Part shown: positions 42,650 through 52,973 of the stretch, one piece after another | Layout: every line of letters starts with the position of its first letter | How positions within the stretch are numbered: position 1 is the stretch's first letter | NCBI RefSeq assembly: GCF_000733935.1 | Contig: NZ_JPON01000001.1 | Coordinates: forward strand, 4,166,623 to 4,230,622 | Source: Methylomarinum vadi | GTDB taxonomy: Bacteria > Pseudomonadota > Gammaproteobacteria > Methylococcales > Methylomonadaceae | DNA: 64,000 nucleotides | Direction of reading: 5' to 3' | Notes under the pieces: model-generated | What the model was told of the DNA's origin: nothing | What the model saw: only the letters and a program-made list of their open reading frames with translations | Database searches by the model: none | Position numbers and translations under genes: made by a program

Positions 42650-43612
42650 TTGAAGGTTCAGCATAGACAAGTTTCGGTGATTGCTCCGGCCCGGCTGCAC
42701 ATGGGCTTTATCGATTTGAGCGGGGCATTGGGGCGCCATTTCGGCAGTATCGGCATGGCCCTGAATGAAATCAGTACTCGTCTGACCCTGTCGGCAGCCG
42801 ACGCATTACAGGTGTACGGATCGGTTGCGGGACGGGCGGAGAAATGTGCCCAAGCGTTATGCAATACATTGCAAGTCCCGGAAACGGTTGCGATTACGAT
42901 TCATTCGGCGATTCCTGAGCATATTGGTTTGGGTTCCGGCACGCAACTGTCGCTAGCCATCGGCTCCGCGTTGAATGCTTATTATGATTTGGGTTTGTCG
43001 GTGAGAGAAATCGCCCAGTTGACCGACCGCGGTGCCCGTTCCGGAATCGGCATCGGCGTGTTCGAGCAAGGAGGGCTTGTCGTAGACGGCGGCCGCGGCG
43101 AAGCGACCACGACGCCGCCGATGATCGTTCATATGGATGTGCCGGAGCACTGGCGGTTCATTCTGGCGTTCGACGATAGGGGGCAAGGGCTGCATGGCAA
43201 GCAGGAAGTCGCCGCCTTTAAGGAGCTACCGCCGTTTCCGCAACAGGAAGCGGCGCGGTTATGTTATTTGTTGTTGATGCAAGGGCTGCCGGCCCTTGCC
43301 GAGCAGGATATCGTCGGCTTCGGCGATGTCGTGACGCAATTGCAACGTTCCGTCGGCGAGCATTTCGCTTCGGTGCAGGGCGGCGTATTTACCAGTCCCG
43401 AAGTGGCCCAGGCGATGGCGTGGCTGGAGCGGCAGGGCGCTGTTGCCATCGGCCAGACATCTTGGGGTCCCACCGGCTTTTGTGCGGTTGAGGGTGCTGA
43501 CAAGGCCGAGGCTTTATTAATGCAATTACAGCGTAATTTTTCTGAAGTTCCCCATTTAAGTTTCGCCGTGGCCAGCGCCCGGAATAGCAGCGCGAATGTC
43601 TCGGTAGTTTGA
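42650..43612 (+). CDS. RFAP-synthase-like enzyme of H4MPT biosynthesis (Orf4 type)
   Basis: A 320-residue GHMP-superfamily protein of the beta-ribofuranosylaminobenzene 5'-phosphate synthase family. This enzyme joins 4-aminobenzoate (or 4-hydroxybenzoate) to PRPP with loss of CO2, the first committed H4MPT step. Visible: APARLHMGFIDLSGALGRHF, PEHIGLGSGTQLSLAIG (nucleotide/phosphate loop) and GIGIGVFEQGGLVVDGGRG. The start is TTG 42650 behind AGGTAGG. Known as orf4 in methylotroph clusters. The co-located pabB could supply the aminobenzoate. Confidence 0.9.
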   Translation: MKVQHRQVSVIAPARLHMGFIDLSGALGRHFGSIGMALNEISTRLTLSAADALQVYGSVAGRAEKCAQALCNTLQVPETVAITIHSAIPEHIGLGSGTQLSLAIGSALNAYYDLGLSVREIAQLTDRGARSGIGIGVFEQGGLVVDGGRGEATTTPPMIVHMDVPEHWRFILAFDDRGQGLHGKQEVAAFKELPPFPQQEAARLCYLLLMQGLPALAEQDIVGFGDVVTQLQRSVGEHFASVQGGVFTSPEVAQAMAWLERQGAVAIGQTSWGPTGFCAVEGADKAEALLMQLQRNFSEVPHLSFAVASARNSSANVSVV

Positions 43613-43616
43613 GGTC

Positions 43617-44720
43617 TTGGCCGTTTTCCCCGGCAAAATTCTGGTCATCGCCAAATCCGCGCGTATGCTGGCCGGTTATTTGGCCGAAGCCGGTTATGAC
43701 GCGGTTGCGATCGATTGTTATGGCGATAGCGATACACGGGCCATGGCCTTGGATTATTGTTTTGTGCCGGGGCTGGCGTTGGCCGATATCCAAGAACCGG
43801 TTCTGGCGATGAAAAGCCGGCATGGCCTGAATCATGCCATTTACGGTAGCGGCTTTGAAAGCAATTTGCCGAGCCTGGATTTTTTGCAAGGCCGGTTTAC
43901 GCTTCTGGGTAATGCCGCGAGCCGTTTCGCCAGGGTGCAGGATAAGGCTTTTTTCTTTCAACGGCTCGACGAATTGGGTATAGCGCATCCGGCCGTCTCG
44001 TTCACGCCGCCCGTCTCGGAAGGTCGTTGGTTGGTCAAACCGCTGGCCGGTGAAGGCGGGTTGGGGATTCATCGTTATAGGCCCGATTCGGTCGCGGGGG
44101 TTGAATCGTGCTATTGGCAACACTATATCGATGGCATGGCGATGTCGGTTTTGTTCGTGGCCGCACAAGGTCGGGTGGCCATCGTCGGCTATCAGCGACA
44201 GTTGCTCTGCGCTAACAATTCGTCGCAGCCGTTTTTGTTTGCCGGTGTGCTTTCCTGGCCGGAATTGCCAGGACCGGTTCGGTTATTGGTCGCCGGCTGG
44301 GCGGCAAAACTTGCGCAATGCTTTCGGCTACGGGGGCTGAATAGTTTGGATTTTATATTGCGGGACGGGCGTTGTTACGCCTTGGAGGTCAATGCCAGGC
44401 CGCCGGCGAGTCTGCAGTTGTATGGAGAGGATATCATCGAGGCCCATATAAAAGCCGTTTTGCGGGGGACGGTGGCTGAAGCGGTTCGTCCTGAGCGGCT
44501 GTCGGCCTATAAAATTGTTTACGCCGAACGAGAAATCCTGATCGATGAAAAAATTACTTGGCCGCGATGGACGGCCGACCGGCCCAGGTCGGGGTCGAGA
44601 ATTGGGCAGGGCGAACCGATTTGCAGTATCATTGCCCGCGCGCAAAACCGGCAGCAACTGATGGATCGTCTACGCAATAAACAACAGGTTGTCGAAAAAC
44701 TTTTAAACACAGGTAGTTAA
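43617..44720 (+). CDS. ATP-grasp protein of the H4MPT cluster (Orf17 type)
   Basis: A 367-residue ATP-grasp protein. Motifs: [36 protein letters not shown] (ATP-binding lysine region) and [20 protein letters not shown] with the metal-binding E-x-N. It is placed between the RFAP-synthase-like gene and mch, where other methylotrophs keep such a protein. Likely a carboxylate-amine ligase in side-chain assembly of H4MPT or methylofuran; substrate unproven. TTG at 43617, 4 bases after the previous stop. Confidence 0.8.
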
Positions 44721-44724
44721 TATC

Positions 44725-45708
44725 ATGCAATACACAGCGAGCGTTAATCAACTCACCCAACCTTTGGTTCAGCAATTGATCGAGCAAGCGGATAAATTCA
44801 GAATCGAGGTCAAAACGCTGGAGAGTGGCAGCACGATTATCGATGCGGGTATTAACGCGCCTGGCGGCCTGGAGGCCGGCCGTATCATCACCGAAATCTG
44901 TCTGGGCGGCATGGGCACTGTTTCATTGTCGCACAGTTGTTATACCAAAAACTGGCCGTTGACGGTCAATGTGCATAGCACGAATCCGGTACTGGCCTGT
45001 CTTGGCAGTCAATATGCCGGTTGGAGTCTGTCGCATGAAAAATACTACGCCTTGGGTTCCGGCCCGGCCCGAGCCATGGCAACCAAAGTCAAGGAAGGCG
45101 TCGTCGAGCCGGTCGAAGAGCTTTATAAGGAACTGGATTATCGCGACAGCGCCGACAGCACGGTGCTGGTAATCGAAAACGATGCCGTACCGCCGCTGGC
45201 CATCGTCGAAAAAATCGCCGCCGCGTGCGGAGTCGCCGCCGAAAAGTTGACCATTATCGTAACCCCGACCAGCAGTCTGGCGGGCTGCGTGCAAGTGGTC
45301 GGCAGGGTGCTGGAAGTGGCCATGCACAAGGCCCACGAATTGCATTTTCCATTGGAAAACATCATAGACGGTAGCGGTAGTGCGCCGATTTGTCCGCCGC
45401 ATCCGGATTTCGTCAAGGCGATGGGTCGCACCAATGACGCCATTCTGTTCGCCGGCCAGGTCCAGCTTTACGTCAAGGGTAGCGATGAAGCGGCTGAAAA
45501 ATTGGCCAAGGAATTGCCGAGCTCGACGTCCAAGGATTACGGCAAACCGTTCGCCGAAGTCTTCAAGTCTTATAATTACGATTTCTTTAAGATCGACGGC
45601 ATGTTGTTTAGTCCGGCCAGCGTCATCGTGACGGCGGTCGAATCCGGCAGAAGTTTCCGCGCCGGCAAGCTGGATAACGAGTTGCTCGATTTGTCATTCG
45701 GCGCCTAA
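44725..45708 (+). CDS. mch: Methenyl-H4MPT cyclohydrolase
   Basis: 327 residues of the Mch family. It interconverts 5,10-methenyl-H4MPT and formyl-H4MPT in formaldehyde oxidation. Visible conserved pieces: [43 protein letters not shown], and [20 protein letters not shown]. Full length, ATG 44725 four bases after the upstream stop. Order mch-orf5-orf7-fae is as in other methylotrophs. Confidence 0.97.
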
Positions 45709-45750: not shown

Positions 45751-46671
45751 TTGGGCCGTATAGCGATTTTTACCGATGATCCGGGTTGGCACGGCAGGCA
45801 ACTGCGCCTGGCCTTCGCCAACCGGGGGTTCAGCGGAGAATACGTTTCCTTGACCGAGTGCAGAATGCAGCTCGGCGACGAAGGATTGCCAATAGTCATT
45901 CCCGGTTTCGAGCAAACTTTACCGGATGCCGCTTTTGTCCGCGGCGTGCCGGGAGGTTCGTTGGAAGAGGTGGTGTTCTACCTGGACATCCTGCACGCGC
46001 TGAAATTGGCCGGCGTGCCGGTTTATAACGACGGGCGCGCGGTCGAGCGCAGCGTCGATAAGGGAATGACTACGTTTCTGTTGCATCGCGCCGGTTTGCC
46101 GACACCGGTTACCTGGATCGCCAGGGAGCGGGGCGAGGCGTTGGCGATCGCCGAACGCGAGCTGAAGGCGGGCAATATGCTGATCAGCAAGCCGTTGTTC
46201 GGTTCTCAGGGCGAGGGGATTCGCCGTATCGAGAAAATGACCGATTTGTTCTGGCTGACCAGTAGCCGGGGGATTTATTACCTGCAGCGTTTTGTTCATT
46301 GTGAAGGCGAAGGTTATTCCGATACCCGGGTGTTTGTGGTCAACGGCCGGGCGCTGACGGCGATGCGCCGGCGCGGTAAATCCTGGTTGAACAATGTCGC
46401 CCGCGGCGCTAGTTGCGAAGCTGTCGAGCTAACCGACGAACTGGCACGACTTGCGGTCGAAGCGACCACCGCGTTGGAGATGGATTATGCCGGCGTCGAT
46501 ATCATCAGGGACAGGGAGGGGCGGTATCAAATTATCGAGGTCAACAGCATCCCGGCCTGGAAAGGTTTGGAGAGCGTTTGCGGGTTCAATATCGCCGAGT
46601 GTTTGGCGGAAGACTTGTTTTCCCGTTATCTAAGTGCCAATCAGGCGACTCAGAGTGCCGATGCCTCATGA
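45751..46671 (+). CDS. ATP-grasp RimK-like protein (Orf5 type)
   Basis: 306 residues beginning RIAIFTDDPGWHGRQL, then GLPTPVTWIARERGEAL, LISKPLFGSQGEGIRR (ATP-grasp), CEGEGYSDTRVFVVNGRAL and IIEVNSIPAWKGLE with the metal-binding Glu/Asn. The family resembles RimK and MptN, which add glutamate to cofactors, so a glutamyl or related ligation on H4MPT or methylofuran is likely. It starts with TTG 45751 and overlaps the next ATG (46668-46671, ATGA). Confidence 0.88.
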   Translation: MGRIAIFTDDPGWHGRQLRLAFANRGFSGEYVSLTECRMQLGDEGLPIVIPGFEQTLPDAAFVRGVPGGSLEEVVFYLDILHALKLAGVPVYNDGRAVERSVDKGMTTFLLHRAGLPTPVTWIARERGEALAIAERELKAGNMLISKPLFGSQGEGIRRIEKMTDLFWLTSSRGIYYLQRFVHCEGEGYSDTRVFVVNGRALTAMRRRGKSWLNNVARGASCEAVELTDELARLAVEATTALEMDYAGVDIIRDREGRYQIIEVNSIPAWKGLESVCGFNIAECLAEDLFSRYLSANQATQSADAS

Positions 46672-47528
46672 TTAATCGGCAGCAGTTAATCTCGGCCTAT
46701 GAAGAGGCCTGCGAGGTGGAGTTGCTTGCCTTCAAGCCGGGCAATGTCAGTGTGCATAGTGACGGCCATGACATGACGGTCGAGGATTTCAGAATCAGTT
46801 ACCGGGTAAGTTCAGAACCGATCACCGATCCCAATTATTCTTTGGGCGAGAAAATTTATTACGCGGTAAAGGCGACCCGTGAGGCCGTAGGCTGTAATAC
46901 CAATTTGGGGATCATCCTGTTATGCGCGCCGTTGCTGCAAGTCGCCGCCGATCTGGAGCAAGGACAGTCATTGCGCGAAGCCGTGTGTCGCTTGTTGGCG
47001 AACACGACCCGTCGGGATGCCGATTGGGTGTTCCAGGCCATCGTGCTGGCTTCGCCAGGCGGCTTAGGCGATTCCGGCGAGCAAGATGTCAGGCAGGAGG
47101 CAACGGTGACTCTGACCGAGGCCATGAAAATAGCTGGTAACAAAGATAGAATCGCTTATCAATTTGCTTCAAATTATAAAGATATTTTTGGATTTACTAT
47201 TTTCATGTATAATGCCACTTTCGCGAAATTTGGTGATCGGAATTGGGCGGCGTTGTCTGTCTATGCGGGCATGTTGGAACGCTACGCTGATAGCCATATT
47301 GAACGGAAATATGGCCAGCAATATACAGACTGGGTAGCGGGCGAAATGAAAAGGGTTCATGAGTCCTTGCTCACGGTCAGTAATCCTGAATCGCTGCTAC
47401 CGATGCTGCATGGCATCGATGAAGCGTTCAAGGCGAAAGGTATCAATCCGGGCACGACAGCTGATATAACCGTTGCAACAGTGCTGGCGGTGTTTTTGCA
47501 ACAGTTGATCGGTGATGTGTCCAGTTGA
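46668..47528 (+). CDS. CitG/MdcB-like protein (Orf7 type)
   Basis: 286 residues from ATG 46668, the start coupled to orf5. The beginning LISAYEEACEVELLAFKPGN and LGIILLCAPLLQVA with ASPGGLGDSGEQDV match the triphosphoribosyl-dephospho-CoA synthase (CitG/MdcB) family. Family members transfer a ribosyl group from a nucleotide. In methylotrophs this gene sits beside mch and fae and is thought to act in dephospho-type cofactor steps of H4MPT synthesis; the exact reaction is not established here. Confidence 0.88.
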   Translation: MINRQQLISAYEEACEVELLAFKPGNVSVHSDGHDMTVEDFRISYRVSSEPITDPNYSLGEKIYYAVKATREAVGCNTNLGIILLCAPLLQVAADLEQGQSLREAVCRLLANTTRRDADWVFQAIVLASPGGLGDSGEQDVRQEATVTLTEAMKIAGNKDRIAYQFASNYKDIFGFTIFMYNATFAKFGDRNWAALSVYAGMLERYADSHIERKYGQQYTDWVAGEMKRVHESLLTVSNPESLLPMLHGIDEAFKAKGINPGTTADITVATVLAVFLQQLIGDVSS

Positions 47529-47632: not shown

Positions 47633-48142
47633 ATGGCTAAAATCAACAACGTACGCGTTGGCGAGTCTTTGGTTGGCGATGGTAATGAAGTTGCTCATAT
47701 CGATTTGATTCTGGGGCCTCGTGGTTCCGCTGCCGAGTCCGCTTTTGCTAACTGTTTGACAAACAATAAAGACGGTTTCTCCAGTCTGTTGGCAGTGGTT
47801 GCCCCTAACTTGATGGTTAAACCAGCAACTGTTATGTTCAACAAGGTAACCATCAAAGGCTCCAAGCAAGCCGTACAAATGTTCGGTCCTGCTCAACGTG
47901 GTGTTGCGATGGCTGTTGCTGATTCTGTAGAAGATGGCACTATCCCAGCTGACGAAGCGGACGATTTGTTCGTTTGTGTAGGTGTATTCATTCACTGGTT
48001 GGCCGATGACGACGCTAAAATCCAAGAGTACAACTACAAAGCGACAAAAGAAGCTATCGAGCGCGCTGTTGCTGGTACTCCTACTGCGTCTGAAGTCGTT
48101 GCCGGAAAAGCAACTGCAGAGCACCCATTCGCTGCAAAGTAA
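47633..48142 (+). CDS. fae: Formaldehyde-activating enzyme
   Basis: 169 residues, full length. Conserved Fae segments: VGEALVG-like [20 protein letters not shown], the active-site region [20 protein letters not shown], and [16 protein letters not shown]. It catalyses condensation of formaldehyde with H4MPT to methylene-H4MPT, the entry to the pathway. Last gene of the H4MPT block, followed by a strong terminator. Codon use looks optimised compared with neighbours, as expected for an abundant protein. Confidence 0.98.
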
Positions 48143-48169
48143 GTTTTTCTTACCGACAGTGGATAAAAA

Positions 48170-48197
48170 ATACCCCGGTTATACGGGGTATTTTTTT
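48170..48197. terminator. Bidirectional intrinsic terminator
   Basis: ATACCCCG-GTTATA-CGGGGTAT (8-bp stem) with A-run before and T-run after, so it can stop both fae (plus) and the HisA-like gene (minus), which converge here. It overlaps the stop codon of the latter. Confidence 0.9.
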
Positions 48198-48874
48198 GTC
48201 TGCAGTTTTTTGATGTCCTCGCCGGTAATGGCGCGGGAATGGAGGGCGCTGGCTACTAAGGCCTTATCGATGCCGATGTCGATTAATCGTTTTAGATCGT
48301 TACCGTCACGGACTCCGCCGGCGGCAATAAATTGTTTGTCGGGGTGTTTTTTCTTGTATTCGGCCAGTTTAACGGTATCGGGGCCGCTATGACTGCCGAC
48401 CCGTGCCAGAGTCATGATGATGACATTTTGCGGCCAGACATCCTTGTTTTCAAATAACAGCGGGTGGCCCAGGCGTTCCTCGCCGGTAAAATCGAGCGAT
48501 AGAATATAATTCTGTCGCGGCTTTACACCTAAATGGTGCTGTGACTCGGTGCCGATGACGGGGGTTAAGTTTGAAGCGCGGGGTTCATCCACTTCCATTA
48601 ATTGACTACCGTTATCCAGCCAGAACTGGATATTGCCATAACGGTCGCTTAGCTCGTGAATTTGTTCGGCGTGATCGCCTTGCCGGGTAATGGCGTTAAG
48701 ATCGGCGATATAAAACGTATCAAAGTCATGTAAGTCCAGAAAAGTCTCCATCACGGCGCAAAGTGATGAAGAGGAACACAGGGGGGTTTTGAGCGGCTGA
48801 TAGCGGTCGCGATCGCCGTGACGGGCGTGGACGACATGACCATCTTTTAAATCTATTACGGGGATTATTTGCAT
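48179..48874 (-). CDS. HisA/HisF-like TIM-barrel protein of the C1-cofactor locus
   Basis: 231 residues. It begins MQIIPVIDLKDGHVVHARHG with the catalytic-type Asp of HisA/TrpF barrels; a second Asp is in ILSLDFTGEE; phosphate-binding loops AAGGVRDGNDLKRL and ALVASALHSRAI. The HisA isomerisation in histidine synthesis is improbable since the gene lies among methylofuran/H4MPT genes. It is head to head with the mfnD-like gene, with starts touching. A cofactor-synthesis role is inferred. Confidence 0.8.
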   Translation of the reverse strand: MQIIPVIDLKDGHVVHARHGDRDRYQPLKTPLCSSSSLCAVMETFLDLHDFDTFYIADLNAITRQGDHAEQIHELSDRYGNIQFWLDNGSQLMEVDEPRASNLTPVIGTESQHHLGVKPRQNYILSLDFTGEERLGHPLLFENKDVWPQNVIIMTLARVGSHSGPDTVKLAEYKKKHPDKQFIAAGGVRDGNDLKRLIDIGIDKALVASALHSRAITGEDIKKLQTKKYPV

Positions 48875-49879
48875 TTGAAAGTTTTGTTGTTCGAATTCAT
48901 TTGCGGCGGCGGTTTGGCCGGTCGGCCGTTGCCGGATTCCCTGGCAAGGGAAGGAAAGATGATGTTACAGGCTTTAGTTAGGGAATTGAAGTCGTTGCCT
49001 GATATCGAGCCGATTATTTTGCTCGACCGGCGCTGTTCTTTGGAGGATGTGCCCGAGAGGGCTCGCATTGTCTACCTAGAGCAAAACCAGCAGTATCAGT
49101 TCGTCGTAGAAATGATGTTGCCTGACTGTGATTTGTTCTGGCCGATAGCGCCGGAAACGGACGATGTATTGTCCTCGTTGGCCGAATTGGCCAAAAAAAC
49201 GAAAGTAGGTGCACTATTATCGACGCCGTCAGCGTTAAGGTTATGCGCGAGCAAATATCGGACTTGCCGGCACCTTCTTCGATCCAAGATCAATGCTGTC
49301 GAGACTAAGTATTTAGCTGATGTCAGTCCATTGGATCATGACGCCATGGTCGTCAAACCAGACGATGGTGTCGGTTGCGAAGGCAGTTTTGTCGTTTTAG
49401 GTCGGCAAGAATGGCAGCAAGTTGTTGATAAACCGGCTAGGGCGGAACACCTTGTCGTGCAGCCTTATTTGCCCGGGCGTTCGCTGAGTTTGTCCTGTTT
49501 GTTCCGTCATGGCCAGGGCTGGTTGTTGTGCTGTAACGAACAAGAACTGTTAATCGATAAAGGCCGTTTACAGTTGACGGCCTGCCGAGTCAATGTGGCC
49601 GATCAGCTTGCCAGCGATTACCAAGCGCTGGTAGAGCAGGTTGCGGTGGCGATTCCCGGATTATGGGGGTATGCCGGTATCGATTTAATCGAATCGCAAC
49701 AGTATGGCGCGGTCGTGCTTGAAATCAATCCGCGTTTGACCACTTCCTATTGCGGTATCCAGGCCGCGACCGGCATCAATGTTGCCGAGCAGGTTATAAA
49801 ATTGCTGGATGAGGCGCCGGCACTTCGTAAAAACGTCAACCAAACGATAACGGTCGATATTCACGCGGGTATTCATTGA
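48875..49879 (+). CDS. mfnD: ATP-grasp ligase, MfnD-like
   Basis: 334 residues from TTG 48875 (an in-frame TTG at 48869 is also possible). LKVLLFEFICGGGLAG opens the protein; VVKPDDGVGCEGSFVV and AGIDLIESQQYGAVVLEINPR are ATP-grasp elements. Matches the ATP-grasp type that joins glutamate to tyramine (MfnD) in methanofuran biosynthesis, and this is followed by mfnF- and mfnE-like genes. Ends overlapping the next ATG at 49879. The exact substrate in methylotrophs is not proven by sequence. Confidence 0.75.
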   Translation: MKVLLFEFICGGGLAGRPLPDSLAREGKMMLQALVRELKSLPDIEPIILLDRRCSLEDVPERARIVYLEQNQQYQFVVEMMLPDCDLFWPIAPETDDVLSSLAELAKKTKVGALLSTPSALRLCASKYRTCRHLLRSKINAVETKYLADVSPLDHDAMVVKPDDGVGCEGSFVVLGRQEWQQVVDKPARAEHLVVQPYLPGRSLSLSCLFRHGQGWLLCCNEQELLIDKGRLQLTACRVNVADQLASDYQALVEQVAVAIPGLWGYAGIDLIESQQYGAVVLEINPRLTTSYCGIQAATGINVAEQVIKLLDEAPALRKNVNQTITVDIHAGIH

Positions 49880-50928
49880 TGCAACAACAAATAATTGGTT
49901 GGGATATTGGCGGGGCGCATCTCAAGGCGGCTCTGTTGGACAGTGAGGGGAAGGTGCTCGATATTGCGCTTTACTCCTGTCCATTATGGAAAGGAATGGA
50001 TTATTTGCGCCAGGCCGTGCAAGCGGTATTGCAGCAGTTTCAATGCAGGGAATGTCGTCATGCCCTGACCATGACCGGCGAGCTGGTCGATTTGTTCGCT
50101 GGCAGAGAACAGGGTGTCAGAGAGATCGTCGCGGCCATGCAAGACTTTTTGTCCCCGGATAGCTGCTGGATTTATGCCAGGCAGCGCGGATTTTTGTCCG
50201 CGACCACGTCGTTATCGAAACAGGATTGCCTCGATATCGCCTCTATGAACTGGCTGGCCAGTGCTTTGTTGGCAGCGCAACGGGTCGATGCGGGGCTGTT
50301 TGTTGACATTGGCAGTACCACAACCGATATTTTGTTATTTGCCGATGATAAAGTCGCTCCGTTGGGGAGTACTGATTATCAGCGGCTGGTTTCGTCCGAA
50401 CTGGTCTATACCGGCATAGTCAGGACGCCGGTGATGGCTCTTGCCCGCCAGGCCGTATTCAAGGGCCGAAGCATGGGATTGATGGCCGAATATTTCGCCA
50501 CGATGGCCGATGTCTATCGTTTGACCGGAGACTTGAAAGAAGTGCACGATCAAAGTGAAACGGCCGATGGCGGCGAGAAGACGCCATTGGCCAGCGCCCG
50601 GCGTTTGTCGCGCATGACAGGTTATGATTTTGTCGAGGAGGACTGGTCTCTTTGGCTGGATTTCGCCAAACATTTGAAGGATATTCAGAAAAGGCAAATC
50701 GGGGAGGGGTGCCTAAAGCAGTTGTCCAGATTGAGCAGGCTGGATAATGTCCAATTAGTCGGTGCCGGGATCGGGCGTTTTCTGGTCAAGGAAATTGCCA
50801 ATGAGTTTGGTTATGTTTATCGGGATTTTAACGAGCTGATCGGAGATGTTGAGTCGGATGTGGAAATCGATAGTGGCGATTGCGCGCCGGCGGTGGCGGT
50901 CGCCAGTCTGGCGCTTAGGGTTTGTTAA
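49879..50928 (+). CDS. mfnF: Hydantoinase-like H4MPT-linked C1 protein, MfnF-like
   Basis: 349 residues of the family named probable H4MPT-linked C1 transfer pathway protein, related to hydantoinase/oxoprolinase ATPases. Visible: IIGWDIGGAHLKAALLD (ASKHA phosphate loop), HALTMTGELVDLFAGREQGV and LFVDIGSTTTDILLF. In archaea MfnF condenses the furan diphosphate with glutamyl-tyramine. Start ATG 49879 overlaps the upstream stop (TGATG type). Confidence 0.85.
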   Translation: MQQQIIGWDIGGAHLKAALLDSEGKVLDIALYSCPLWKGMDYLRQAVQAVLQQFQCRECRHALTMTGELVDLFAGREQGVREIVAAMQDFLSPDSCWIYARQRGFLSATTSLSKQDCLDIASMNWLASALLAAQRVDAGLFVDIGSTTTDILLFADDKVAPLGSTDYQRLVSSELVYTGIVRTPVMALARQAVFKGRSMGLMAEYFATMADVYRLTGDLKEVHDQSETADGGEKTPLASARRLSRMTGYDFVEEDWSLWLDFAKHLKDIQKRQIGEGCLKQLSRLSRLDNVQLVGAGIGRFLVKEIANEFGYVYRDFNELIGDVESDVEIDSGDCAPAVAVASLALRVC

Positions 50929-51045
50929 TTCGAACGGCTGTTATAGAATTGTCACAATTTACCGAAGCGATCTCCGTAATCCCAGAACATGCTCTTGCAA
51001 CACGCTCATCTTTTCACTTTATCGGGGCAAGGGCAGGCATATTGA

Positions 51046-52419
51046 ATGTTAACTTCTAAACAACTTAAACATCCCCTGCCGTATTTTGCCGATAGCGCCC
51101 GGCTGTTTAGTCCGCTTGCCGACAAACCGTGGTCGGTTTTTCTCGACAGCGGTTATCCGAAAAGCAGTCAGGGCCGCTTCGATATCATTGCCGCCGGCCC
51201 GCTATGCACCTTGGTTACCCAGGGTGAACAGACGGAAATCAGACACGGAGGGCACTGTGTTATCTCCAGGGAAGACCCGTTCGAATTACTCAAACAACAA
51301 TTGGGTGAGAAAAAGCAATCAATCGATCATCTTCCCTTCAATGGTGGCGCGCTGGGTTATTTTTCTTATGACTTGGCGCGCCGGCTGGAAAAATTGCCGA
51401 TCATCGCCGAAGACGCCGAACACATTCCCGAGATGGCCGTGGGTATTTATTCCTGGGCGGTCATCATCGATCATAAACGCCAGGAAAGCTGGCTGGTCGG
51501 CCATGAAACCCAGGAAGACGATTGGGAAACCTTGATCGACCAGTTCAGCCTGTTACCGGCTTACCCTGAGCTTGGACAATTCCAGGTACTGGATAAGCCA
51601 TGTTCTAATATGGACAAGGAAGACTATGCCAAAGCCTTCGCCAAAATTAAACATTACCTCAAGGAAGGAGACAGTTATCAGGTCAATTTAGCGCAGCGTT
51701 TTGTCAGCCACTGCAGTGGCGATCCCTGGTTGGCCTATCAACAGTTGCGCAAAATCAACGCGGCACCGTTCAGCGCCTATATCAATTTCCCCGAGGTGAG
51801 GGTGCTCAGCTCATCGCCGGAACGCTTTTTGAAAGTCACCGACGGCGAAGTCGAGACCAAGCCGATCAAGGGGACCCGTCCTAGAAAATTGCTGCTGGAC
51901 CAGGACCGGTTGCAGATCAGCGCCTTGTCCGCCAGCCTGAAAGATCGGGCCGAGAATGTGATGATCGTCGATCTGCTGCGTAACGATATCAGCAAGAATT
52001 GCCGAAAAGGTTCGGTAACGGTGCCAAAATTGTTTGCCGTGGAAAGCTATGCGACGGTGCATCATTTGGTCAGCACGATCAAGGGTATGCTGGCGGAAGG
52101 ACACCATGCGCTGGATTTACTCAGGGGTTGCTTCCCCGGCGGCTCGATAACCGGAGCGCCAAAGATAAGGTCGATGGAGATTATCGAGGAATTGGAACCC
52201 AATCGCCGGGGCGTGTATTGTGGTGCGATCGGTTATATCGGTTTCGACGGCAATATGGATACCAATATCGCCATACGCACGCTGGTCCATTCCGATGACA
52301 TGATCCGTTTCTGGGCGGGTGGCGGCATCGTTAACGATTCGGTGCTGGAAGAGGAATATCAGGAGAGTTTCGACAAGGCGGCCGCGTTGTTGGAATTGTT
52401 GGAATATTTTCGGCACTGA
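51046..52419 (+). CDS. pabB: Aminodeoxychorismate synthase component I
   Basis: 457 residues. Chorismate-binding motifs: EGDSYQVNLAQRF, SSSPERFLKV, PIKGTRPR (the PabB-type Lys), GSITGAPKIRSMEIIEELEP and FWAGGGIVNDS. It makes 4-amino-4-deoxychorismate for p-aminobenzoate, needed both for folate and, through RFAP synthase, for H4MPT. Its stop overlaps the mfnE-like ATG by one base. Located 117 bases after mfnF; that gap may hold a separate promoter. Confidence 0.95.
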   Translation: MLTSKQLKHPLPYFADSARLFSPLADKPWSVFLDSGYPKSSQGRFDIIAAGPLCTLVTQGEQTEIRHGGHCVISREDPFELLKQQLGEKKQSIDHLPFNGGALGYFSYDLARRLEKLPIIAEDAEHIPEMAVGIYSWAVIIDHKRQESWLVGHETQEDDWETLIDQFSLLPAYPELGQFQVLDKPCSNMDKEDYAKAFAKIKHYLKEGDSYQVNLAQRFVSHCSGDPWLAYQQLRKINAAPFSAYINFPEVRVLSSSPERFLKVTDGEVETKPIKGTRPRKLLLDQDRLQISALSASLKDRAENVMIVDLLRNDISKNCRKGSVTVPKLFAVESYATVHHLVSTIKGMLAEGHHALDLLRGCFPGGSITGAPKIRSMEIIEELEPNRRGVYCGAIGYIGFDGNMDTNIAIRTLVHSDDMIRFWAGGGIVNDSVLEEEYQESFDKAAALLELLEYFRH

Positions 52420-52973
52420 TGGAAGTCATTAAGTTGGGAGGAAGCCTGAGCCATTCGACCGGTTTGCTGGACAGCCTGGAACGAGTCGATCGCCGTTCCC
52501 GGGGGCGGTCTGTCGTCATCGTGCCGGGTGGCGGCGCTTTTGCCGATCAGGTCAGAATGGCGCAAGGCCAATGGCGCTTCGATGACCGGGCCGCGCATTG
52601 TATGGCGATTCTGGCGATGCAGCAAATGGCGTTATTGCTGCAAACTCTAAGGCCGAATTGGCGGATTGTTTCTCTCGTCGGCGAGATCGCGGACGAACTC
52701 AATCGTGTGCCTGTGGTGATCTGGTCGCCGCAAGTGGCTGAGTTGGACCAAGGCGGCGTTCCCGCCAGTTGGGAGGTGACATCGGATAGTCTCGCGGCGT
52801 GGCTGGCGGCGCGATTAGAGGCCTCTGAACTGTTCCTGGTCAAGGCCGCGCCATTGCCGGACAGGGCCGGTCTCGAGCAATTGCAGGCGCTGGGGATCGT
52901 CGACCGAGCCTTTCATCGTTATAGCGGACAAGCGTCTTTTACTACTCATTTCCTCAATCCACAGCAGTTGTAA
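52419..52973 (+). CDS. mfnE: Amino-acid-kinase-fold protein, MfnE-like
   Basis: 184 residues with MEVIKLGGSLSHSTGLLD and VIVPGGGAFADQVRMAQ, glycine-rich loops of the amino acid kinase fold. Archaeal MfnE phosphorylates aminomethylfuran phosphate to the diphosphate used by MfnF. Context beside mfnF and mfnD supports that. Shorter than most kinases of this fold (about 200-260), as in other MfnE-like forms. Confidence 0.8.
   Translation: MEVIKLGGSLSHSTGLLDSLERVDRRSRGRSVVIVPGGGAFADQVRMAQGQWRFDDRAAHCMAILAMQQMALLLQTLRPNWRIVSLVGEIADELNRVPVVIWSPQVAELDQGGVPASWEVTSDSLAAWLAARLEASELFLVKAAPLPDRAGLEQLQALGIVDRAFHRYSGQASFTTHFLNPQQL

Follow-up and report, generated by a model that had tools for sequence, protein, structure and literature searches.

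What does a HisA-like (βα)8 protein do in a cluster of one-carbon coenzyme genes, in a genome that has a hisA and a hisF of its own? The question is raised by a gene, orf17, of Methylomarinum vadi (Pseudomonadota; NCBI RefSeq assembly GCF_000733935.1, contig NZ_JPON01000001.1), found in a stretch of 64,000 nucleotides (positions 4,166,623 to 4,230,622 of the forward strand; the whole stretch is called the window below). The window is an 'archaeal-like' C1 (one-carbon) cluster, and a reading made from its letters alone (the sequence-only reading) had put the gene forward as a candidate for methylofuran biosynthesis, at the furan-forming step of MfnB or at an additional one. The gene is a bacterial member of the known Orf17/hisAF_rel family, and neither HisA nor a substitute for MfnB. 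The distribution of the family follows that of MfnB and not that of RFAP synthase, and in bacteria and archaea alike there is physical linkage between orf17 and mfn genes; Orf17 probably belongs to the furan branch of methylofuran/methanofuran biosynthesis, as an enzyme that acts together with MfnB and does not replace it.

The link of orf17 to methylofuran is already published (PMC8141765, J Biol Chem 2021), where a PF00977 gene of this kind was named Orf17. As given in the passages of that paper on the gene, deletion of orf17 in Methylorubrum extorquens PA1 (mxaF-deletion background) abolished methylofuran and a plasmid copy restored it; the deletion strain had no methylofuran-glutamate (methylofuran-Glu) intermediates, and methenyl-dephosphotetrahydromethanopterin (methenyl-dH4MPT) was still detected, whereas deletions of MyfA and MyfB accumulated methylofuran-Glu intermediates. 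The role of Orf17 was called unclear, and the protein was left out of the pathway scheme; the authors also had no gene to assign to the bacterial transaminase MfnC (PMC8141765). Among the Creative Commons-licensed papers of PubMed Central (PMC) that were searched, none besides this one pairs orf17 with methylofuran and none other names MJ0703, which is weak evidence of absence; PMC6595629 and PMC3615186 mention orf17 alongside M. extorquens, and excerpts of PMC9982363 and PMC5020050 do not name the gene. Added here are evidence from two domains that places the family in furan synthesis, and the finding that it tracks MfnB, not RFAP synthase.

Co-occurrence of Orf17 with MfnB and RFAP synthase

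Genome samples were draws; two sets of 35 and 20 archaeal genomes were hand-picked from 119 loci. Among 150 genomes of the phylum of M. vadi, Orf17 was found in 8 (at least 90 bits; next matches at most 68.6 bits) and MfnB in exactly the same 8 (Fisher p 1.9e-13, uncorrected for shared ancestry); RFAP synthase (NF040726, E at most 1e-20) was found in these 8 and in one further genome, G015. Of 35 mcrA-bearing archaeal genomes, 24 had a TIGR00734 match of at least 101 bits, 23 after removal of G174 (see below), and MfnB was found in 23; both genes were present in 22 genomes, Orf17 only in 1, MfnB only in 1 and neither in 11. A search of 20 further archaeal genomes for Orf17, with no MfnB search in that set, gave 14 with the gene. 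Of the 121 genomes in the phylum to which G168 belongs, 16 carry Orf17 (at least 117 bits) and 18 carry MfnB: both in 16, MfnB only in 2, Orf17 only in 0; matches at 90 bits or less in this phylum were not checked one by one, and two genomes (G258 and G282) belong to both the 20- and the 121-genome set.

The counts for 61 genomes of the phylum of G165 were: an RFAP-synthase-family gene over the cut-off in 58, Orf17 in 0 (best TIGR00734 match 63.1 bits) and, in G165, the one genome of this set searched for it, no MfnB. We take the phylum of G165 to be Thermococci and that of G168 to be Thermoproteota, from the Methanofastidiosum and Methanomethyliaceae names at two loci (L067 and L084, respectively) and the GTDB grouping; Thermococcus makes modified folates with a ribityl-aniline part. 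Since TIGR00144 and NF040726 also match in Haloferax and Sulfolobus, they mark RFAP-synthase-family genes and not proven RFAP synthases. G015, which is of the class of M. vadi, carries its RFAP-synthase-like gene (C4:4259930-4260823, 171 bits) without MfnB and without Orf17.

Several matches in the range of weak Orf17 scores were rejected as HisA: G174 (101 bits, first counted as Orf17), which passes the HisA model with 234.7 bits and adjoins a weaker HisF-type match; and G346, G340, G312 (98, 95 and 90.5 bits), G373 (93.5 bits), a second match in G379 and the two next-best bacterial matches, all of which pass the HisA model.

From these counts the family goes with the furan and not with the pterin. 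A role in methylofuran synthesis, as proposed by the sequence-only reading, is supported by the M. extorquens deletion and restoration (PMC8141765) and by a distribution that follows MfnB.

Gene neighbourhood in other genomes

A head-to-head mfn partner of orf17 recurs in both domains and the partner differs: mfnD or mfnF in bacteria, mfnB in archaea. The orf17 and mfnB genes stand head to head in 12 of the 22 mcrA-bearing and 3 of the 16 G168-phylum genomes that have both (15 in total; not so in the other 10 and 13), with gaps of 8–115 bp (median 32, 13 loci measured, counted from the first start codon of each frame). Ten of the 16 G168-phylum loci were inspected: in six, orf17 is in one run with mfnD-mfnF-mfnE, directly beside mfnD in five and with mfnB between in one, and mfnB is in the same stretch in five; a seventh has orf17 with mfnF-mfnE-mfnB. 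In these inspected loci mptG occurs in one stretch and mch in another.

Compact clusters of orf17, mfnD, mfnF, mfnE and mfnB were seen at five G168-phylum loci (L203, L206, L208, L209, L212), where no mfnA or mfnC candidate was found among the neighbours scanned. The scan of 21 archaeal orf17/mfnB neighbours besides mfn genes gave no aminotransferase and no tyrosine decarboxylase.

On bacterial plasmids (35 records gave hits, the last of them doubtful at 22% identity, and 5 were opened) orf17 is divergent from an MfnD-like gene in Azospirillum, Azoarcus, Paraburkholderia and Candidatus Thiodictyon, and from an MfnF-like gene in Phyllobacterium. In the six bacterial stretches with both genes, orf17 and mfnB are 2.2–13 kb apart. 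The starts of orf17 and its partner are separated by a few bases up to about 115 bp, and overlap in the window and in Azoarcus (L224:9001-9002); promoters would therefore have to lie largely inside the facing gene. In Phyllobacterium, MfnB (L226:2616-3788) and a FolB-type dihydroneopterin aldolase domain (PF02152) form a single fusion protein, which brings furan and pterin branches together.

Family identity and the rest of the genome

The window protein matches TIGR00734 (hisAF_rel) with 93.8 bits over profile positions 1-218 of 221, under the curated cut-off of 179.85. Not one of the 8 bacterial Orf17 genes from the 150-genome draw scores that high, nor does any of the 16 G168-phylum genes, and 6 of 35 and 3 of 20 methanogen-type genomes have a match that does; the cut-off therefore looks too strict for most of the family, and annotation by it would miss the bacterial and G168-phylum members. 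Against TIGR00007 (HisA equivalog) the window protein gives 49.6 bits where 228.95 are needed, and no PF04476 (MfnB) match was found in the profile scan. Compared profile to profile (hhalign), the window protein matches HisA with probability 100 (E 6.7e-40); for MfnB the probability is 2.

In a 74-row tree, 60 Orf17 rows, bacterial and archaeal, are apart from HisA and HisF (branch support 100/99); 9 HisA rows (95/84) and 5 HisF rows (100/100) are each separate, and the window protein lies within a 12-row bacterial Orf17 set (100/100). All 9 HisA rows pass TIGR00007; of the HisF rows, that of L001 was identified by scan and the other four were labelled from their position beside hisA. The 60 rows were taken from 66 Orf17 genes found (8 from the phylum draw, 5 from plasmids, 53 archaeal), G004 and five archaeal genes being left out. 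A scan of viral contigs gave no relatives.

The M. vadi genome (4.34 Mb, one contig, C1) carries MfnB, MfnE-like, MfnF-like, HisA and HisF genes beside Orf17. The hisA and hisF genes are at C1:2615159-2616606 (PF00977, 295.6 and 277.7 bits) and pass TIGR00007 and TIGR00735, respectively, so that orf17 is not the sole hisA; the mfnB gene is at C1:706878-707519 (PF04476, 230 bits; the only match in the genome), 3.5 Mb from orf17 along the contig or 0.8 Mb if the contig is circular. The sequence-only reading was thus right that MfnB is not seen in the window, and this does not extend to the genome; of its two suggestions, a stand-in for MfnB falls, since MfnB is in the genome and the two barrels are nearly always found together in the genomes sampled, and the additional step survives. 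It had also named as evidence against itself an MfnB homologue elsewhere together with normal methylofuran in a deletion strain: the homologue exists, and the M. extorquens orf17 deletion is without methylofuran (PMC8141765). The mfnB gene belongs to a second one-carbon island (C1:700000-716000) with a flavoprotein gene, a DUF6513 gene and, adjoining, a dihydropteroate-synthase-like gene and a pyridoxal-phosphate (PLP)-dependent (PF00291) gene.

Conserved residues

Fifteen residues are invariant in 60 of 60 Orf17 rows (D8, V15, G20, R22, Y25, Y55, A57, D58, G89, E110, D128, G160, G186, G187, H212); D87 is Asp and V159 is Val in 57 of 60 each. The family signature defined here (R22, Y25, Y55, D87, E110 and H212 with D8 and D128) is complete in the window protein, which has both of the catalytic-type Asp residues claimed for it by the sequence-only reading. 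D8 and D128 occupy the two catalytic positions of HisA and HisF; D8, D58 and D128 are common to Orf17 and the 9 HisA rows, which have His at 55, Gly/Ala at 87, Lys/Arg/Ser/Met/Leu at 110, Asp/Glu at 159 and Tyr at 212.

The loops of HisA hold two substrate phosphates. In Orf17 the GGGIR phosphate-loop motif of the N-terminal half is gone, with D87 and E110 there, and the GG motif of the C-terminal half is kept; one reading of this pattern is that the substrate carries a single phosphate and that acidic residues stand where HisA would bind another. Among solved structures, HisA of Thermotoga maritima (1qo2) and its variant 2w79, which was reportedly made to work on phosphoribosylanthranilate, are the closest relatives. 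By alignment the variant has Val at the positions of both D128 and V159; Orf17 retains Asp at the former, and Val is its natural residue at the latter.

Probable assignment to the furan branch and possible mechanism

The loss of every methylofuran-Glu form in the orf17 deletion (PMC8141765) fits a block before MfnF, and Orf17 very probably acts in the furan branch, ahead of MfnF. Among the steps that precede MfnF, those of MfnB, MfnE and MfnD have genes of these types in the island or elsewhere in the genome, and the amination is without an assigned bacterial gene. As the scanned neighbours also include no aminotransferase, Orf17 would act on an intermediate with one phosphate, near the MfnB or MfnC step; elimination would leave the amination of the furan aldehyde phosphate 4-HFC-P to F1-P as the step with the poorest coverage. 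The distribution and neighbourhood of the family narrow the search for the Orf17 step to those around MfnB and MfnC.

An acid-base isomerisation of a one-phosphate intermediate is suggested tentatively as the mechanism. D8 and D128 would be the acid/base pair, as in HisA; an intermediate with one phosphate, between triose phosphate and F1-P, would be held at the site in the C-terminal half; and D87 and E110, in place of the N-half phosphate loop of HisA, might hold an amine or other non-phosphate end, the last assignment being the weaker one. A bolder version, distinctly unlikely, makes Orf17/MJ_0703 the dedicated enzyme for PLP-independent amination in the furan branch of bacteria and archaea: with no PLP, the HisA-type barrel would join 4-HFC-P (an aromatic aldehyde phosphate that itself resembles PLP) to an amine donor as an imine, D8/D128 would move a proton to give F1-P, and the PLP transaminase called MfnC would owe its assignment to a side activity.

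The following points weigh against the furan-branch assignment or its mechanism. Archaeal MfnB, MfnC, MfnE and the MfnF coupling are active as purified enzymes without Orf17, so that no furan step is strictly vacant; all six archaeal enzymes are reported active when purified, and the identity of several intermediates is described as unsettled in the same paper (PMC11365854, in the passages on these enzymes). G154 (1.4-Mb assembly) has Orf17 without MfnB, and G169 (Methanophagales), G263 and G341 have MfnB without detectable Orf17. The gap in G169 is probably one of assembly, because three other Methanophagales all have Orf17 (3/3); in G341 the run mfnB-mfnE-mfnF is followed after about 0.4 kb by the end of the contig, and for G263 there is no such excuse. 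Many of the archaeal genomes are metagenome-assembled, which makes absences soft. Nine Orf17-positive archaeal genomes gave no HisA match at E 1e-12 with TIGR00734, no HisA-specific search being made there. A PLP-dependent gene, the PF00291 gene (not of an aminotransferase family), lies about 3 kb from mfnB in M. vadi. H212 is not specific to the family, since HisF also has His there, and Thr155 is invariant in 8 bacterial rows but not conserved in archaea. The AlphaFold model of the window protein from its single sequence has a pLDDT (model confidence) of 39, too low to be useful, so that the active-site argument rests on alignment.

If Orf17 owns a step, the six-gene methanofuran pathway (MfnA–F) is one gene short in methanogens and methylotrophs. 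A HisA relative appears to have been retained by bacteria and methane-making archaea that build the furan coenzyme.

Alternative assignments

Unlikely, though with some weight, is a role of Orf17 as a partner of MfnB with no separate step, which would bind or channel the furan aldehyde or speed its isomerisation or cyclisation. On its own, M. maripaludis MfnB turns over slowly (0.9 per min at 25 °C, 2.7 at 45 °C) and is subject to substrate inhibition (PMC11365854), the genes are head to head in 15 archaeal genomes and co-occurrence is near strict. However, MfnB is a homohexamer that makes 4-HFC-P alone in vitro (PMC11365854), the two genes are 2.2–13 kb apart in the six bacterial stretches and 3.5 Mb (0.8 Mb on a circle) in M. 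vadi, and the conserved D8/D128 pair looks catalytic. An enzyme of a one-phosphate intermediate and a helper of MfnB are not separable by sequence.

A place for Orf17 in the tyrosine/tyramine-glutamate or polyglutamate branch, and not in the furan branch, is improbable. It is brought to mind by the MfnD-like ligase that faces orf17 in the window and in 4 of the 5 opened plasmid loci; in the 15 archaeal genomes the facing gene is mfnB, a HisA-type barrel has no obvious ligase chemistry, and deletions of MyfA and MyfB accumulate the methylofuran-Glu intermediates that are missing from the orf17 deletion (PMC8141765).

Very improbable, and largely refuted, is the tetrahydromethanopterin (H4MPT) branch, in which Orf17 might act on RFAP by an Amadori-like isomerisation that opens its ribofuranosyl ring; the chemistry is an idea of this report, the role in H4MPT synthesis having been suggested earlier for MJ_0703. 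Such a reaction suits the chemistry of the fold, the substrate would resemble phosphoribosylanthranilate, Orf17 has V159 where variant 2w79 has Val, and orf17 and mptG occur together in the window as well as in 8 of 11 further bacterial stretches. Against these stand the methenyl-dH4MPT retained by the orf17 deletion (PMC8141765) and the RFAP-synthase-family genes without Orf17 in 58 of 61 G165-phylum genomes (MfnB searched for in G165 alone) and in G015.

The two remaining readings are rejected: replacement of MfnB as furan former, which would account for a 64-kb window in which no MfnB was noted, fails on the mfnB gene elsewhere in M. vadi, on co-occurrence in other genomes and on the hhalign probability of 2; and a second HisA, for which the common superfamily and the HisA profile probability of 100 could be quoted, fails on the genome's own hisA and hisF, the TIGR00007 score and the tree split of 100/99.

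Gene cluster of the window

The layout described in the sequence-only reading holds: orf17 converges on fae and stands head to head with the mfnD-, mfnF- and mfnE-like genes (Table 1); pabB, in the same run, had gone unmentioned. The mfn labels in the window are matches under curated equivalog cut-offs; TIGR03123, whose cut-off is passed by the MfnF-like protein, is a hypothetical-equivalog model. The second ATP-grasp_3 ligase is presumably MyfA/OrfY-like.

Table 1. Genes of the one-carbon cluster around orf17 (window coordinates).
Feature	Position	Strand	Evidence
orf17-type HisA-like (βα)8 protein	48179..48874	-	231 aa, ATG start; PF00977 67.2 bits
MfnD-like ATP-grasp ligase (tyramine/tyrosine-glutamate ligase type)	48869..49879	+	NF040722 87 bits, PF02655 98 bits; TTG start
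MfnF (Orf9) homologue	49876..50928	+	TIGR03123 320 bits (> cut-off); NF040623 146 bits (< cut-off)
pabB, aminodeoxychorismate synthase component I	51046..52419	+	TIGR00553 377 bits (> cut-off)
MfnE (Orf21) homologue, short	52419..52973	+	NF040622 74 bits, profile positions 1-140 of 211
fae, formaldehyde-activating enzyme, convergent with orf17	47633..48142	+	TIGR03126 247 bits
CitG-like protein	46665..47528	+	PF01874 212 bits
RimK-type ligase (MyfB/Orf5-like via MptN resemblance)	45751..46671	+	TIGR00768 163 bits (> cut-off); NF040720 212 bits (< cut-off)
mch, methenyl-H4MPT cyclohydrolase	44725..45708	+	phmmer 352 bits to Azospirillum stretch annotated mch
Second ATP-grasp_3 ligase	43617..44720	+	PF02655 57 bits
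mptG-type beta-RFAP synthase (pterin branch)	42650..43612	+	TIGR00144 179 bits (> cut-off)

If translation of the MfnD-like gene begins at the TTG at 48869, its 5' end and that of orf17 share 6 bp; the convergent gap between fae and orf17 is 36 bp. In this interval a hairpin with A and T runs was seen by eye (about 48165-48200), overlapping the orf17 stop codon; it resembles a bidirectional terminator and is absent from the list given by a terminator scan. The pabB gene lies between mfnF and mfnE, and on the Candidatus Thiodictyon plasmid beside mfnF (L227:5285-6682); its position mixes a supply gene of the pterin branch into the furan run.

Comparison with known systems

HisA (1qo2, T. maritima) is matched over the full profile length, and both catalytic-position Asp residues and the C-half GG motif are common to it and Orf17; identity of the 9 HisA rows to the window protein is only 20-23%, the N-half GGGIR motif is lost in Orf17, and HisA has Asp/Glu and Tyr where Orf17 has V159 and H212. 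MfnB (4rc1, MJ1099) shares with Orf17 the TIM barrel, the pathway and, in archaea, often the facing position, without a detectable sequence-profile relation (hhalign probability 2; HisA against MfnB, 11); unlike Orf17, it is a type I aldolase (PMC11365854).

Orf17 of M. extorquens (Mext_1835) is the nearest parallel: it is likewise a PF00977 HisA-like gene of an 'archaeal-like' one-carbon cluster, in a genome with separate hisA and hisF and an MfnB homologue (PMC8141765). Orthology of the window gene to it rests on family, tree and neighbourhood, the deletion data being those of the M. extorquens gene. MJ_0703 of Methanocaldococcus jannaschii (TIGR00734) belongs to the same family, which shares R22, Y25, Y55, E110, H212 and mostly D87; the window protein is 31-32% identical to three archaeal Orf17 rows, MJ_0703 itself not being among them. 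In PMC8141765, MJ_0703 is given as 26% identical and as earlier proposed for H4MPT biosynthesis. That role is not supported here: distribution and neighbourhood put the family in the furan branch in archaea too, against the older pterin assignment.

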